DNA from: SAR202 cluster bacterium Io17-Chloro-G4
GTDB taxonomy: Bacteria > Chloroflexota > Dehalococcoidia > Lucifugimonadales > UBA3495
Reading direction: 5' to 3'
Assembly: GCA_002816455.1 (NCBI GenBank)
Contig: MUCR01000043.1
Coordinates: 1 to 53,665 of the forward strand
Length of the DNA: 53,665 nt
Shown in pieces: positions 22,051-28,233 of this stretch; the first letter of the stretch is position 1, and the number at the start of each line of letters is the position of its first letter. The notes beneath the pieces were generated by a model. That model saw only the letters and a list, made by a program, of their open reading frames with translations. It was not told the origin of the DNA and ran no database searches. A program made the position numbers and the translations under genes.

Positions 22051-23541
22051 ATGGTGCTGGACGTTTCGACGGCCCAGGGCGCAATGACCGGGCAAAGGTA
22101 TATCGAGAGTCTGAAGGACGGTCGAGAGGTGTGGCTGGACGGCGAGAAGGTCACGGATGTGACCGTCCATCCCGCTTTTTCCGGCATGATCCACGAGTTA
22201 GCCCGCATCTATGATCTTCAACACAGCAAGAAGCACCGGGACGATATGACCTTTGTCTCACCCGAGACGGGCAACCGGTGCAGCCTGTCTTGGTTGCTGG
22301 CCAGGACCGAAGATGACCTAAAACGGAAGCGGCGGAACAGCGAGATTTGGACCGGGGAGAGTTGGGGGCAGCTTGGCCGAAGCCCAGACATATTGGCTCC
22401 ATTCATCACCGCCCTCTATAAAGCCAGAGAATCGTTAAGCGCCGTCAAACATCCCCACTGCGACTTTGGCGATAACGTAGTCAACTATCAACGTTACTGC
22501 GCCGAAAACGACCTTTTCTTGACCCACGCATTGGGCGACCCCCAAGTGGACCGAAGCCAGCAACCCCAAAACGAACAGCGGGCCGCTCTGGAAGAAGAAC
22601 TGGCTCTCCACGTAGTCGAGGAAACCAATGAAGGGGTCATCATCACGGGCGGCAAGCAGCTAGCCACGGCCGCCCCTATAAGCCACGAAACCTATGTTTC
22701 GTTGTCAGCCACCTTCGTGCAGCGTTCAGACCCCCGTTTTGTGTTGGCATTTGCTATCCCCACCAACAGCGCTGGCCTGAAAATGCTATGCCGGGAGCCT
22801 GTCTCCCAATGGAGCGGCAGCTATGGGCACCCGCTGGGAACCCTCTACGACGAGCAGGACTGCATGCTTTTCTTCGAGGAGGTGCTGGTGCCTTGGGACC
22901 GGCTGTTTATGCTCTATGACTTCGGCCCAATGGTGCAAAGTTTCTCCGGTGGCCTCAATTTCATGGAGTGGGCCAACCTCTGCCGGATTCATCAGCGGAT
23001 GCGCGTCATGACCGCCGTTGCCACAATGATTGCTGAAAGCATCGGCGTAATAGAGTACCGGGAGGTAGCAGCCAAGCTGGGTGAGATGATTACCTACACA
23101 GAGATGTGGGAGCATGCCATGGACGGCGTGGAGCACAAGACCTACATGGATGAAGGAGGCATCATGACCTTGGGTTCCATGTCGGGAATGAACATTTTCT
23201 TCGCCCAGACCTCGGCTAGAATGGTCCAGCTATTGAGAGAGATTGCTGGCTCGGGAATGATCATGCAGCCCAGCGAGAATGACCTGGCGAACCCTGAGAT
23301 AAGACCCTATTTGGAGCGCTACATGCGAGGCAAAGACGTGAGCGTGGAGCACAAGTCCCGGCTCTTCCGCATGGCCCACGATTTGGCTGTATCATCCTTT
23401 GGCATGCGCCAGGAAATTTACGAGTATTGGCACGGCGGCGACCCAAACCGCAACAGGATAAACTTGCTTCGGGGTTACGACCAGAGCGACACCGTTGCTC
23501 GGATAGAGGAGTTGATTTCTAAGCCTTTGCCTCATGGGTAA
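22051..23541 (+). CDS. HpaB-type flavin-dependent hydroxylase (4-hydroxyphenylacetate 3-monooxygenase family)
   Basis: 496 residues matching the large component of two-component aromatic hydroxylases. MTGQRYIESLKDGREVWLDG is the standard N-terminus. An acyl-CoA-dehydrogenase-like middle follows (GVIITGGKQLATAAPISHET), then LFFEEVLVPWDRLFMLYD, and the helical C-terminal bundle with LEIAGSG-like and GDPNRNR ends. It would hydroxylate a phenolic or related ring using FADH2 from an HpaC-type reductase, which is not in the window. AAGGAG is 7 bases before the ATG. The DUF1326 gene follows by 51 bases on the same strand and may be co-transcribed. Confidence 0.88.
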   Translation: MVLDVSTAQGAMTGQRYIESLKDGREVWLDGEKVTDVTVHPAFSGMIHELARIYDLQHSKKHRDDMTFVSPETGNRCSLSWLLARTEDDLKRKRRNSEIWTGESWGQLGRSPDILAPFITALYKARESLSAVKHPHCDFGDNVVNYQRYCAENDLFLTHALGDPQVDRSQQPQNEQRAALEEELALHVVEETNEGVIITGGKQLATAAPISHETYVSLSATFVQRSDPRFVLAFAIPTNSAGLKMLCREPVSQWSGSYGHPLGTLYDEQDCMLFFEEVLVPWDRLFMLYDFGPMVQSFSGGLNFMEWANLCRIHQRMRVMTAVATMIAESIGVIEYREVAAKLGEMITYTEMWEHAMDGVEHKTYMDEGGIMTLGSMSGMNIFFAQTSARMVQLLREIAGSGMIMQPSENDLANPEIRPYLERYMRGKDVSVEHKSRLFRMAHDLAVSSFGMRQEIYEYWHGGDPNRNRINLLRGYDQSDTVARIEELISKPLPHG

Positions 23542-23592
23542 CTTGTAGGCGCCCATTGGGTTCTAGGCAAACTTGACATAAGGGTGGATAAA

Positions 23593-24210
23593 ATGGGAAC
23601 TTCGGAGAAATGGCGCTTAAAAGGGCAATACTTCGAGAACTGCAACTGCGAAATTCTGTGCCCTTGCGTGTTGCCGGTGGCGCCCGGCGCTCCCACCGAA
23701 GGACACTGCGACGTGGGCTTGGCATTCCACATAGTGGAAGGAGAGTTTAACGACGTCTCTCTTGGAGGCCTAAACTTCGTAGTGGCAGCCTATACGCCAG
23801 AGAGTATGGGAGCGGGAAATTGGACCACCGCAATGTACGTTGACGAGCGAGGCTCCGAGGAGCAGCGGAATGCCTTAAGCCGGATTCTCTCCGGGGAAAT
23901 CGGAGGTCCCATGGCCAATTGGATGGCTTTGACCACCGACTTCAGGGGCACCAAGTATTGCGCCATCACTTTTGAGGCGGAAGGCGACTCCCGGCGCGTG
24001 ACTATACCCAACATAATTGACTTCAACGTTGAGGGGATCAGAGCGGGGCGCCGTAGGGAAGTTATGAGGCTGGAGAACGTGGGACATCCGGTAAGCTCTA
24101 CCCTGGCTTTGGCTCGAGGCACGGGCAGCACCTACACGGACCACGGCATGACCTGGGACAACACGGAAAAGAACGCCCATTTTGCGGATTTTGAGTGGAG
24201 TTGGCCATAG
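23593..24210 (+). CDS. DUF1326 family protein
   Basis: About 205 residues. The N-terminal YFENCNCEILCPC (Cys17, 19, 23, 25) is the hallmark of DUF1326, a family without a firm function; the cysteine cluster suggests metal binding. The conserved HCDVGLAFHI and the VWTDxx-like C-terminal end SAHFADFEW are also present. ATG at 23593 has GGGTGG just ahead; GTG at 23584 is an alternative. Its place after hpaB hints at a metal or redox support role for aromatic breakdown, but that is inference from position only. Confidence 0.75.
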   Translation: MGTSEKWRLKGQYFENCNCEILCPCVLPVAPGAPTEGHCDVGLAFHIVEGEFNDVSLGGLNFVVAAYTPESMGAGNWTTAMYVDERGSEEQRNALSRILSGEIGGPMANWMALTTDFRGTKYCAITFEAEGDSRRVTIPNIIDFNVEGIRAGRRREVMRLENVGHPVSSTLALARGTGSTYTDHGMTWDNTEKNAHFADFEWSWP

Positions 24211-26125: not shown

Positions 26126-26154
26126 TTGACAAGGTATAGGCCCTTTGATACCAT
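26126..26154 (+). promoter_or_regulatory. Promoter for thrC
   Basis: A perfect TTGACA (26126-26131) and TACCAT (26149-26154, four of six matches) are exactly 17 bases apart, about 75 bases before the thrC start. Confidence 0.6.
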
Positions 26155-26228
26155 CACAGACGCTCGGACAGGCGTCTGGGCATTATGTTTTTTGAGCCCT
26201 CTTTGAACCAGTGGAGGCAACCGAACCA

Positions 26229-27509
26229 GTGGCTTTCGTCAACGGATTAAAGTGCCGTGAATGCGACCGAGAGTACTCTTCCGAAGCGCTAAACGTTTGT
26301 GACTTTTGCTTCGGCCCTTTGGAAGTGGTCTACGACTATGCGACCATATCCGAAGTGATCAGCCGGGATAGCATCGCCAGCGGCCCCCTGAGTATCTGGC
26401 GTTACCGGGACCTCCTTCCCGCCGACAGCGAGCATCCGGTCGACATAATGGCCGGATACACACCACTTTTGAAAGCCCATAACCTGGGCAAGAAGCTGGG
26501 ATTGAAGAACCTCTACATCAAGAACGACAGTGTTAATCCGTCGTTCTCTTTCAAAGACAGAGTGGTGTCGGTGGCCGCGACCAAAGCCGTGGAGTTCGGC
26601 TTCGACACTTTGGCTTGCGCTTCTACCGGCAATCTGGCCTGCAGCGTTGCTGCTCATGCCGCCCGCGCCGGAATTAAGGCCGTCGTGTTTATCCCTTCGG
26701 ACTTGGAGCGGGGCAAAATCATCGGCGCAGCGGTGTACGGCCCAACGATGATTTCAGTGGAAGGCAACTACGATGAGGTGAACCGCCTTTGTAGTGAGGT
26801 GGCCGACAACTATCCCTGGGCTTTCGTGAACATCAACATGAGGCCCTATTATGCCGAGGGTAGCAAGACCCTTGGCTACGAAGTTGCCGAGCAATTAGGC
26901 TGGCGCCTACCGGACCATGTCGTTGTTCCTACGGCGTCCGGGGCCATGTTCACCAAGATTTGGAAGGGCTTCAACGAGATGGCTTGCCTGGGCATGTTGG
27001 AAGGAGTGGATTCCTATTCATTCGGGCCGGACCAAAATACGGTGCACCATCCGGCGGTGACCACGAAAATGCACATGACCCAGGCGGCGGGTTGTTCACC
27101 GATAGTCACCGCCTGGGAAAACGGGAGCCCCCATGTGATGCCGGTAAGGCCCAACAGCATTGCCAAGTCCTTGGCCATCGGGAACCCGGCAGACGGGATC
27201 TACTCAATGAGGGTAATTAACAACTCGGCCGGCACCGCTTACGCTGTACCCGAAGACCAGGTTGTCCCCGGTATCAAGCTCTTGGCCGAAACCGAGGGCA
27301 TATTTACTGAGACGGCAGGTGGGGTGGCGATTTCCGGTCTGAAGCACGCAGTAGAAAGCGGGGCGATAAAGCCCGACGAGCTTACTGTGGTGTACATTAC
27401 GGGCAACGGCCTTAAAACCCAAGAGGCGGTGGAGTCGGTGGTCAACCCCTTAACTGTAAAGCCGTTCATGAGCTCTTTTGAGGAAGCGTTTAACCATAGG
27501 CCTGAGTAG
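26229..27509 (+). CDS. thrC: Threonine synthase with N-terminal zinc ribbon
   Basis: 426 residues, fold-type II PLP enzyme. Cys9-x2-Cys12 and Cys24-x2-Cys27 form a rubredoxin-like knuckle typical of the ThrC2/archaeal-type subgroup. Lys109 in NPSFSFKDR is the PLP lysine, STGNLA binds the phosphate of the substrate/cofactor, and ETAGGVAISG lies near the C-terminus. It turns O-phosphohomoserine into threonine. GTG at 26229 is preferred since GGAGG is 11 bases before it and relatives begin just ahead of the GLxCREC segment; GTG at 26211 has no ribosome site. The two genes after it belong to sulfur chemistry, so a beta/gamma-replacement side role with a protein thiocarboxylate is possible. Confidence 0.92.
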   Translation: MAFVNGLKCRECDREYSSEALNVCDFCFGPLEVVYDYATISEVISRDSIASGPLSIWRYRDLLPADSEHPVDIMAGYTPLLKAHNLGKKLGLKNLYIKNDSVNPSFSFKDRVVSVAATKAVEFGFDTLACASTGNLACSVAAHAARAGIKAVVFIPSDLERGKIIGAAVYGPTMISVEGNYDEVNRLCSEVADNYPWAFVNINMRPYYAEGSKTLGYEVAEQLGWRLPDHVVVPTASGAMFTKIWKGFNEMACLGMLEGVDSYSFGPDQNTVHHPAVTTKMHMTQAAGCSPIVTAWENGSPHVMPVRPNSIAKSLAIGNPADGIYSMRVINNSAGTAYAVPEDQVVPGIKLLAETEGIFTETAGGVAISGLKHAVESGAIKPDELTVVYITGNGLKTQEAVESVVNPLTVKPFMSSFEEAFNHRPE

Positions 27510-27617
27510 CGAAAGGTCACCAGCCAATAATTCTATCGGTAATATGGCTGGCTGACGAAGGGCAAATAGTTAAAGATCATTCATACAAGATCAATCAACG
27601 GAAAAGGGGGGCGGGCG

Positions 27618-27857
27618 ATGGGTAAGCGGGTTAAGTTTTCCTTCCCACCAGAGATGGTCAAAGAGCCAGTGATATATAAGCTGGGCCGTGACTTTGAAAT
27701 AGTCACCAACATCCGCCGGGCGGAGGTGCGGGAAGATGTAGGTTGGGTGGTCTTGGAACTGGATGGTGAGGACGCCGAAATTGAGCGAGGCTTGGCCTGG
27801 GTCGGCACAACCGGCGTGCGGGTAGACCCGGTGAGCGGAGACGTGATCGACGGTTAA
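27618..27857 (+). CDS. Stand-alone NIL-domain protein
   Basis: 79 residues: KFSFPPEMVKEPVIYKLGRD and FEIVTNIRRAEVREDVGWVV match the NIL domain, a ferredoxin-like fold found at the C-terminus of the MetN methionine importer and beside homocysteine-forming proteins in archaea. It probably binds a sulfur amino acid or a protein partner. The ATG follows GGGGGGCGGGC-type purine-rich sequence. It lies 108 bases after thrC and 91 before the carrier gene, on the same strand. Confidence 0.82.
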   Translation: MGKRVKFSFPPEMVKEPVIYKLGRDFEIVTNIRRAEVREDVGWVVLELDGEDAEIERGLAWVGTTGVRVDPVSGDVIDG

Positions 27858-27948
27858 GCCGGGTGGCCGAAAAATTGACCCAGCTTGACTAAAAGGAACC
27901 AATTATATCGGGTAGGCGGGTGCATTAAGTACTAGTAGGAGTCCCTTG

Positions 27949-28233
27949 ATGAGCGTAATGATTCGAATCCCCACGCCGCTGAGGCGCATGACCAACGGAG
28001 AGTCCAAGGTCGAAATCGATACCCAAAACGTGGGCGATATGGTGGAAAAGTTAGACTCGTCCTTTCCCGGTTTCAAAGCGAGGCTGGTTGATGAGAACGG
28101 GGATTTGCGTTATTTCGTCAACATCTACCTGAACGGCGAAGACGTCCGGTTCCTACAAGGACTTGATACAACCACCAAGTCCGGCGACGAAGTCAGCATA
28201 GTTCCGGCCGTGGCTGGCGGCGCGTGGATCTAG
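27949..28233 (+). CDS. CysO/MoaD/ThiS-like sulfur-carrier protein with a GG-AWI tail
   Basis: 94 residues of the beta-grasp fold. RIPTPLRRMT, RYFVNIYLNGEDVRF and GDEVSIVPAVAGG match the mycobacterial sulfur carrier CysO almost strand for strand. Carriers of this type are adenylated and thiocarboxylated on a terminal Gly-Gly. Here the Gly90-Gly91 pair is followed by Ala-Trp-Ile, so the carrier must be trimmed first, as known for QbsE (by QbsD) and HcyS (by HcyD), or cannot work. ATG at 27949 has AGGAG 7 bases ahead. With thrC and the NIL gene it suggests carrier-based cysteine or homocysteine synthesis. No JAMM protease or E1-like enzyme is in the window. Confidence 0.87.
   Translation: MSVMIRIPTPLRRMTNGESKVEIDTQNVGDMVEKLDSSFPGFKARLVDENGDLRYFVNIYLNGEDVRFLQGLDTTTKSGDEVSIVPAVAGGAWI

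Follow-up and report, generated by a model that had tools for sequence, protein, structure and literature searches.

A threonine synthase paralogue, a NIL protein and a CysO-like carrier as a probable protein-thiocarboxylate route to homocysteine in SAR202 and other bacteria

What does a gene that would be annotated as a threonine synthase do beside a gene for a ubiquitin-like sulfur carrier? The question is raised by contig MUCR01000043.1 of SAR202 cluster bacterium Io17-Chloro-G4 (53,665 nucleotides; this whole stretch is called the window). It belongs, as contig C43, to a metagenome-assembled genome (MAG; G000) of 1.92 Mb, which is 71% complete and has MAGs of Chloroflexota, of the Dehalococcoidia/SAR202 type, as its closest relatives. 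On its forward strand lie thrC2 (26229..27509), which starts with GTG at 26229, has GGAGG 10 nucleotides upstream and stops at 27509; a gene for a stand-alone NIL domain of 79 residues (27618..27857, ATG start); and a gene for a CysO-like carrier of the ubiquitin fold (27949..28233, ATG start). The carrier has 94 residues and its C-terminus reads SIVPAVAGGAWI up to the stop, that is, AVAGG followed by AWI. A preliminary description had reported these three same-strand genes, and open reading frames together with Pfam and NCBIfam profiles confirmed them and all of their coordinates. The evidence presented here indicates that the three genes are probably devoted to making homocysteine by way of a protein thiocarboxylate, a route in which ThrC2 would act with the carrier and a JAMM protease would release the product.

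ThrC2 is a fold-type-II pyridoxal phosphate (PLP) enzyme, matching PALP at 228.7 bits and the thrC model TIGR00260 at 267.7 bits, above the cut-off. The best PDB matches of its AlphaFold model (mean predicted local distance difference test, pLDDT, 90) are threonine synthases, with template modelling (TM) scores of 0.72-0.83 by query length. Its Schiff-base lysine, Lys109 in SFKDR, is invariant in ThrC2. The N-terminal Cys4 zinc-ribbon motif (C9, C12, C24 and C27) has its like in nearly all ThrC2 members but is lacking in the canonical ThrC that accompanies ThrC2 in these genomes. Such a canonical ThrC (TIGR00260) is present besides ThrC2 in 41 of the 44 cluster-bearing genomes that were searched with profiles, most of which are MAGs; it was not found in three MAGs (G003, G026 and G036), and in the window genome it lies on contig C60. 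In a tree of 62 proteins, long branches separate the canonical ThrC clade (99/96) from the ThrC2 clade (100/99). Moreover, in all 36 ThrC2 proteins of the carrier-linked group, L136, N203 and Y208 replace T88, S155 and R160 of canonical ThrC (numbered as in T. thermophilus, by counting along the alignment), which are taken here to be substrate-contacting residues of the substrate/phosphate loop. This group also has K243 at a position that is Ala or Ser in canonical ThrC. Judged by these sequences, the linked ThrC2 is not the threonine synthase of the cell. As canonical ThrC uses O-phosphohomoserine, this compound should be available in these cells. The cysteate synthase model TIGR03844 also matches ThrC2, at 69 bits, far below its cut-off. 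The window genome contains, in addition, a third and distant ThrC-like gene on a very long branch (G000:C9:18352-19512, L099; 391 residues, 163.7 bits), and comparable third matches occur in most of the SAR202-type genomes searched.

The association of thrC2 with the other two genes is widespread. A genome contig search with the carrier alone as query fetched 80 loci from several phyla, nearly all of which contain a ThrC2 relative, with NIL beside it in most. NIL stands between thrC2 and the carrier in Chloroflexota, whereas in Mariprofundus, Nitrospira, Omnitrophota, Verrucomicrobia, Abditibacterium and a deltaproteobacterial MAG the carrier is in the middle (thrC2-carrier-NIL). An independent sample was formed by 20 Dehalococcoidia picked solely because ThrC2 is present and both HcyBio (PF01837, DUF39) and PF01053, the family of MetB, MetC, MetY and MetZ, are absent; the gene adjoining ThrC2 was a carrier in 17 and NIL in 18. 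The ThrC2-NIL-carrier cluster is real and conserved, and not a chance arrangement.

Pairs of ThrC2 and NIL without an adjacent carrier were also observed. At L133 (G058), L149 (G168) and L134 (G062), there is no HcyBio or PF01053 either, and the carrier may be encoded elsewhere or another donor may be used. Further carrier-less pairs (L103-L105, L107-L109, L158, L162, L166 and L167) adjoin cysK and a PF01053 relative of the cystathionine enzymes, and come mainly from HcyBio-bearing Dehalococcoidia. Those of the latter ThrC2 proteins that the tree included group in a single clade, in which R replaces the otherwise invariant K243. This clade arises from within the carrier-linked group, which makes a secondary loss of the carrier probable. 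A thiamine pyrophosphate (TPP) riboswitch is found at L107 1412-1526 on the reverse strand, near a second stretch with cysK, MoeB and NIL in G072.

Regulation of the cluster gives a first indication of its pathway. Riboswitches for S-adenosylmethionine (SAM) shut off methionine-related genes when SAM is abundant. In 17 loci, Rfam recognizes a SAM-I riboswitch on the same strand as ThrC2, 127-206 nucleotides before its zinc-ribbon motif, with matches of 57-82 bits (gathering threshold, 44.4). These loci belong to Mariprofundales (3), Verrucomicrobia (3), a deltaproteobacterial MAG, an unclassified bacterium and, for the rest, Chloroflexota. None of the 16 loci of the canonical thrC type fetched from such genomes has a SAM riboswitch. 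Because SAM riboswitches control methionine-related genes, their presence at ThrC2 in these relatives is strong evidence for a methionine pathway. A cyclic di-AMP riboswitch lies near ThrC2 in some Dehalococcoidia (L072 6368-6502, L074 7412-7546, L076 7546-7681 and L082 4902-5037).

The step of methionine synthesis for which these genomes mostly lack a known enzyme is the formation of homocysteine. PF01053, which was detected in 13 of 14 control genomes, is absent from 36 of the 44 cluster genomes. Among these are the window genome, two assemblies that consist of a single chromosome (G006 and G021) and an isolate, Mariprofundus erugo P3. PF01837 was found in none of the 44, with positive controls, and neither was a confident MetX (TIGR01392, a model whose curated cut-off was missed even by control genomes). 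By contrast, an enzyme of the MetH type (PF02574) is present in 39 of the 44, as an open reading frame of 1177 residues in the window genome, and a cysteine synthase in 42.

A survey of 158 Dehalococcoidia, comprising the window genome and members at least 85% complete, gave a bimodal distribution of ThrC2 scores. ThrC2 is found with neither HcyBio nor PF01053 in 77 of these genomes, among them the one-contig assemblies G088, G114, G169 and G198, while 26 have HcyBio only and five have none of HcyBio, ThrC2 and PF01053. HcyBio is present in 16 of the 114 genomes with ThrC2 versus 34 of the 44 without it (Fisher p=7e-14, with shared ancestry ignored). ThrC2 and HcyBio thus largely exclude each other in Dehalococcoidia. 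The HcyBio route had earlier been assigned to Dehalococcoides by Price et al. 2018 (PMC5764234).

The carrier itself matches the ThiS profile at 56.2 bits and exceeds the cut-offs of SAMP1 and moaD_arch. The top two hits of a PDB sequence search were the ThiS/MoaD protein 4n6e (2.2e-19) and M. tuberculosis CysO, 3dwg (E 2.9e-18), so the preliminary description of the carrier as nearly superposable on CysO holds as a likeness of sequence, the only level compared. The sequences of both 3dwg and 4n6e stop where the second Gly of the carrier aligns, and the Gly-Gly is conserved in the relatives read. What follows it is not. Among 79 relatives with readable C-termini, 28 end in a bare Gly-Gly and 51 have an extension, of one residue in 41 cases and of two in seven, and the single residues vary (A, C, R, F, G, S and others). 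The AWI tail is peculiar to the window genome, as the nearest relative, L023, which is 92% identical, has only A. Consequently, AWI does not stand as a conserved feature, and the possibility that it is a special processing site was rejected because tails vary freely and are often absent. The tail would need removal, yet it seems to bear no conserved signal.

Such a carrier would require an activating enzyme and perhaps a protease, and the search of the window genome recovered a JAMM protein, a MoeB-type E1 and CysM, but no member of PF01053 (the MetB/MetZ family). The E1 (PF00899) is present in 39 of the 44 cluster genomes and lies at G000:C8:8476-9177 in the window genome. JAMM was found in 40 of the 44; in the window genome, it is encoded on contig C11 (59.5 bits) and has an intact metal motif, E..HSHP..S..D. 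On C8, an Rrf2-family regulator, MoeB and CysM lie in a row (L121 3154-6065), and the carrier that was expected between MoeB and CysM was not found there. The thrC2-linked carrier of this genome might therefore serve both ThrC2 and CysM. In other organisms, partner genes are close by. The Mariprofundus cluster runs on into cysK/M, MoeB and sulfite reductase (the last recognized by eye), next to that of Nitrospira are cysK/M, two MoeB and JAMM, and next to that of Omnitrophota JAMM and cysK/M; cysK/M, MoeB and JAMM are also in the cluster of several Chloroflexota. In several Chloroflexota, thrC2, NIL and carrier 1 are found near a set composed of CysM, carrier 2, MoeB, carrier 3 and CysM. Since separate carriers accompany CysM here, each PLP enzyme appears to have one for itself.

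The preliminary description had proposed that a JAMM protease encoded elsewhere trims the carrier. Its location was predicted correctly, but trimming does not seem to be its main role. In the 43 genomes tested, a strong JAMM match accompanies bare Gly-Gly carriers in 15 of 19 cases and tailed carriers in 21 of 24. The idea that JAMM presence tracks tailed carriers was thus rejected, as it is about equally common with a bare Gly-Gly. Because JAMM is kept with such carriers, the function for which it is conserved is probably to release the product and not mainly to trim the tail. In M. tuberculosis, for instance, Mec+ frees cysteine from CysO-cysteine (PMC3227635).

The NIL protein matches PF09383 at 52.7 bits. 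No Cys is conserved in an alignment of eight sequences, and it is therefore unlikely that NIL carries sulfur. It is probably a regulator or sensor of the methionine/SAM pathway, or perhaps an accessory or partner subunit of ThrC2, although this is a guess from its family.

From these elements, a pathway can be proposed. The MoeB/ThiF-type E1 would adenylate and thiocarboxylate the Gly-Gly C-terminus of the carrier, from which AWI would previously have been clipped. ThrC2 would eliminate phosphate from O-phosphohomoserine, as ThrC does, and the carrier thiocarboxylate would then attack the enzyme-bound vinylglycine-type intermediate at C-gamma, instead of water at C-beta. The resulting carrier-homocysteine adduct would rearrange and be hydrolysed by the JAMM protease, and the homocysteine thus released would be methylated to methionine by the MetH-type enzyme. 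Thiocarboxylation, the acceptor substrate, the adduct, its release and the role of NIL are all predicted from sequence. The product is most probably homocysteine and not cysteine, because cysteine synthases are present (42 of 44), whereas most of these genomes have no known homocysteine route, and because ThrC2 is preceded by SAM riboswitches in relatives. Of the two products that the preliminary description had allowed, only homocysteine is therefore favoured. Its central idea, that a ThrC-like PLP enzyme takes sulfur from the carrier to make a sulfur amino acid, was supported by all the sequence-level tests run, and a standard homocysteine route without any JAMM, which would have told against it, is not what the 71%-complete MAG contains: no standard route was found and JAMM is present.

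In a broader sense, the balance of the evidence leans towards gamma-replacement on O-phosphohomoserine by a ThrC paralogue with a ubiquitin-like thiocarboxylate as a distinct and widespread pathway. Much of Dehalococcoidia, with SAR202 among them, and Mariprofundus would make their methionine mainly in this way, and the homocysteine route still missing in Aquifex, Pyrolobus and Acidimicrobium may be the same one.

Nevertheless, several observations weigh against the proposed pathway. A PF01053 enzyme is present in eight of the 44 cluster genomes and weak MetX-like matches, of 91-164 bits, in 13. The incompleteness of the window genome (71%) affects what its absences mean, most of the other genomes are MAGs, and the statistic for the exclusion of ThrC2 and HcyBio takes no account of shared ancestry. 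In the window genome, MoeB has no rhodanese domain, a point that concerns the sulfur source for thiocarboxylation. Neither the window leader nor 12 further SAR202-type loci have a SAM riboswitch recognized by Rfam, and three of the 20 sampled genomes lack an adjacent carrier. Finally, an inner clade of ThrC2 (100/100), mainly from HcyBio-bearing genomes, has no carrier and lies beside cysK and a PF01053 enzyme, which is of the cystathionine-lyase/synthase kind. The ThrC2 of this clade may work without a carrier, perhaps with cysteine, or may have another use.

This derived subclade is also what lends some support to an alternative in which ThrC2 would make a methionine precursor from free cysteine or sulfide (O-phosphohomoserine and cysteine would give cystathionine, to be cleaved by another lyase) and the carrier would be a mere passenger of CysM. 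In addition, the MoeB-CysM pair of the window genome has no carrier of its own nearby, and that of thrC2 could be the one CysM uses. However, the PF01053 enzyme that would cleave cystathionine is absent from 36 of the 44 cluster genomes, carrier linkage goes with the absence of HcyBio, and ThrC2 keeps carrier 1 even where CysM has carriers 2 and 3 (L065, L070, L072, L074, L076, L080 and L082). Thus, this explanation seems unlikely. It is quite improbable that ThrC2 and the carrier make cysteine from O-phosphoserine, as a ThrC-fold equivalent of CysM-CysO of M. tuberculosis. ThrC-like enzymes can combine O-phosphoserine with a sulfur nucleophile, as cysteate synthase does (TIGR03844, 69 bits, below the cut-off), the carrier resembles CysO and the clusters include cysK/M, but 42 of the 44 genomes already have a cysteine synthase, homocysteine is what is missing, and the operon is under SAM, not cysteine, control in 17 relatives.

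The hypothesis that ThrC2 is an ordinary threonine synthase, with a CysO homologue and a NIL regulator for neighbours and a gene order kept for unrelated reasons, has to contend with the second, canonical ThrC of 41 of the 44 genomes, with the separate, long-branch clade of ThrC2 and its consistent substrate-loop changes, and with the SAM riboswitches, for which threonine synthesis offers no cause and of which the 16 canonical thrC loci have none. Therefore, it is very improbable, even though the thrC equivalog cut-off is passed, the model is closest to threonine synthases and eight genomes have a PF01053 enzyme. The organisms might also be methionine auxotrophs in which the cluster does something else, such as tagging proteins with the carrier. 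They are mostly uncultured, the window genome is 71% complete, and this carrier family can include protein modifiers, in line with the SAMP1 match. By contrast, a MetH-type enzyme is kept in 39 of the 44 and the SAM riboswitches mark the operon as methionine-related. Mariprofundus is an iron-oxidising autotroph that was isolated in mineral medium, and it has the cluster and no known homocysteine route that could be found. Auxotrophy is accordingly given the smallest chance of all.

Around the cluster, NhaA and tgt lie on the opposite strand and flank the three genes. The leader of thrC2 has a promoter-like TTGACA-17-TACCAT on the forward strand (26126..26154), a consensus match only; on visual inspection, L003, L006, L014, L023 and L024 also have a TTGACA-like motif in their leaders. 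It is followed, also on the forward strand, by a GC-rich hairpin and a T-rich run (26157..26181), a possible attenuator whose fold is no better than that of shuffled sequences. Rfam gave no matches in the window leader, lax thresholds included. Further upstream, an HpaB-type flavin-dependent hydroxylase (22051-23541) precedes a DUF1326 gene (23584-24210), a pair that is kept in the nearest relative, L023.

If the proposed thiocarboxylate pathway is true, the threonine synthase annotation of one gene would have to be corrected in many genomes, and the chemistry of threonine synthase would have been turned to C-gamma in place of C-beta, with a protein thiocarboxylate instead of water. Where only the standard routes are considered, predictions from genomes would count such organisms as methionine auxotrophs. 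The means by which many environmental bacteria form homocysteine are a recognized gap. Price et al. 2018 (PMC5764234) considered that at least one further homocysteine pathway was still to be found, and the cluster offers definite candidates for an enzyme, a donor, a protease and a regulator.

How does the cluster compare with known systems? With canonical ThrC (1v7c, 6nmx, 2zsj and 2c2b), ThrC2 has in common the fold and the PLP lysine, but it forms a separate, coexisting clade with a zinc-ribbon motif and with L, N and Y in place of T88, S155 and R160. In the HcyS pathway of Wolinella, homocysteine is made by MetY (fold type I, PF01053) from O-acetylhomoserine, and HcyD is a protease of the JAMM type. 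The likeness would consist of homocysteine formed from a carrier thiocarboxylate, as is predicted here, and of JAMM; the Wolinella carrier is extended past the Gly-Gly and trimmed, and here 51 of the 79 relatives have such an extension, which would have to be removed. In contrast to HcyS-MetY, PF01053 is absent from 36 of the 44 cluster genomes, and the enzyme is ThrC-like, of fold type II, and probably uses O-phosphohomoserine.

The CysO-CysM-MoeZ-Mec+ system of M. tuberculosis (PMC3227635) likewise combines a Gly-Gly carrier, an E1, a fold-type-II PLP enzyme and a JAMM protein, and its enzyme acts on an O-phospho amino acid, as is proposed for ThrC2. Here, however, the conserved partner of the carrier is of the ThrC family, with CysM elsewhere or as an additional gene, the predicted product is homocysteine, NIL is added, relatives have a SAM riboswitch and the carrier is tailed. 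The route of DUF39/HcyBio (PF01837) and a NIL-ferredoxin protein, described for methanogens, Desulfovibrio and Dehalococcoides (PMC5764234), shares NIL, occurs in the same class and has a complementary distribution. Unlike it, the cluster is without DUF39, a ferredoxin domain or direct use of aspartate semialdehyde, and its NIL is stand-alone with no conserved Cys. Operons 4c-4e of Iyer, Burroughs and Aravind 2006 (PMC1779556) contain the carrier/E1/JAB/cysteine-synthase set seen in the Nitrospira, Mariprofundus and Omnitrophota clusters, and that work names neither threonine synthase nor NIL. In the open literature, subscription papers being outside the scope, no earlier description was found of ThrC with a carrier and NIL or of bacterial O-phosphohomoserine sulfhydrylation, and within that literature the cluster is apparently undescribed. 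By the profiles of the defining enzymes, it is not a member of the CysM, MetY or HcyBio pathways. Rather, the proposal would pair the acceptor side of the ThrC reaction with the donor side of the CysM-CysO reaction, and would arrive at the same product as Wolinella HcyS by means of a different enzyme.

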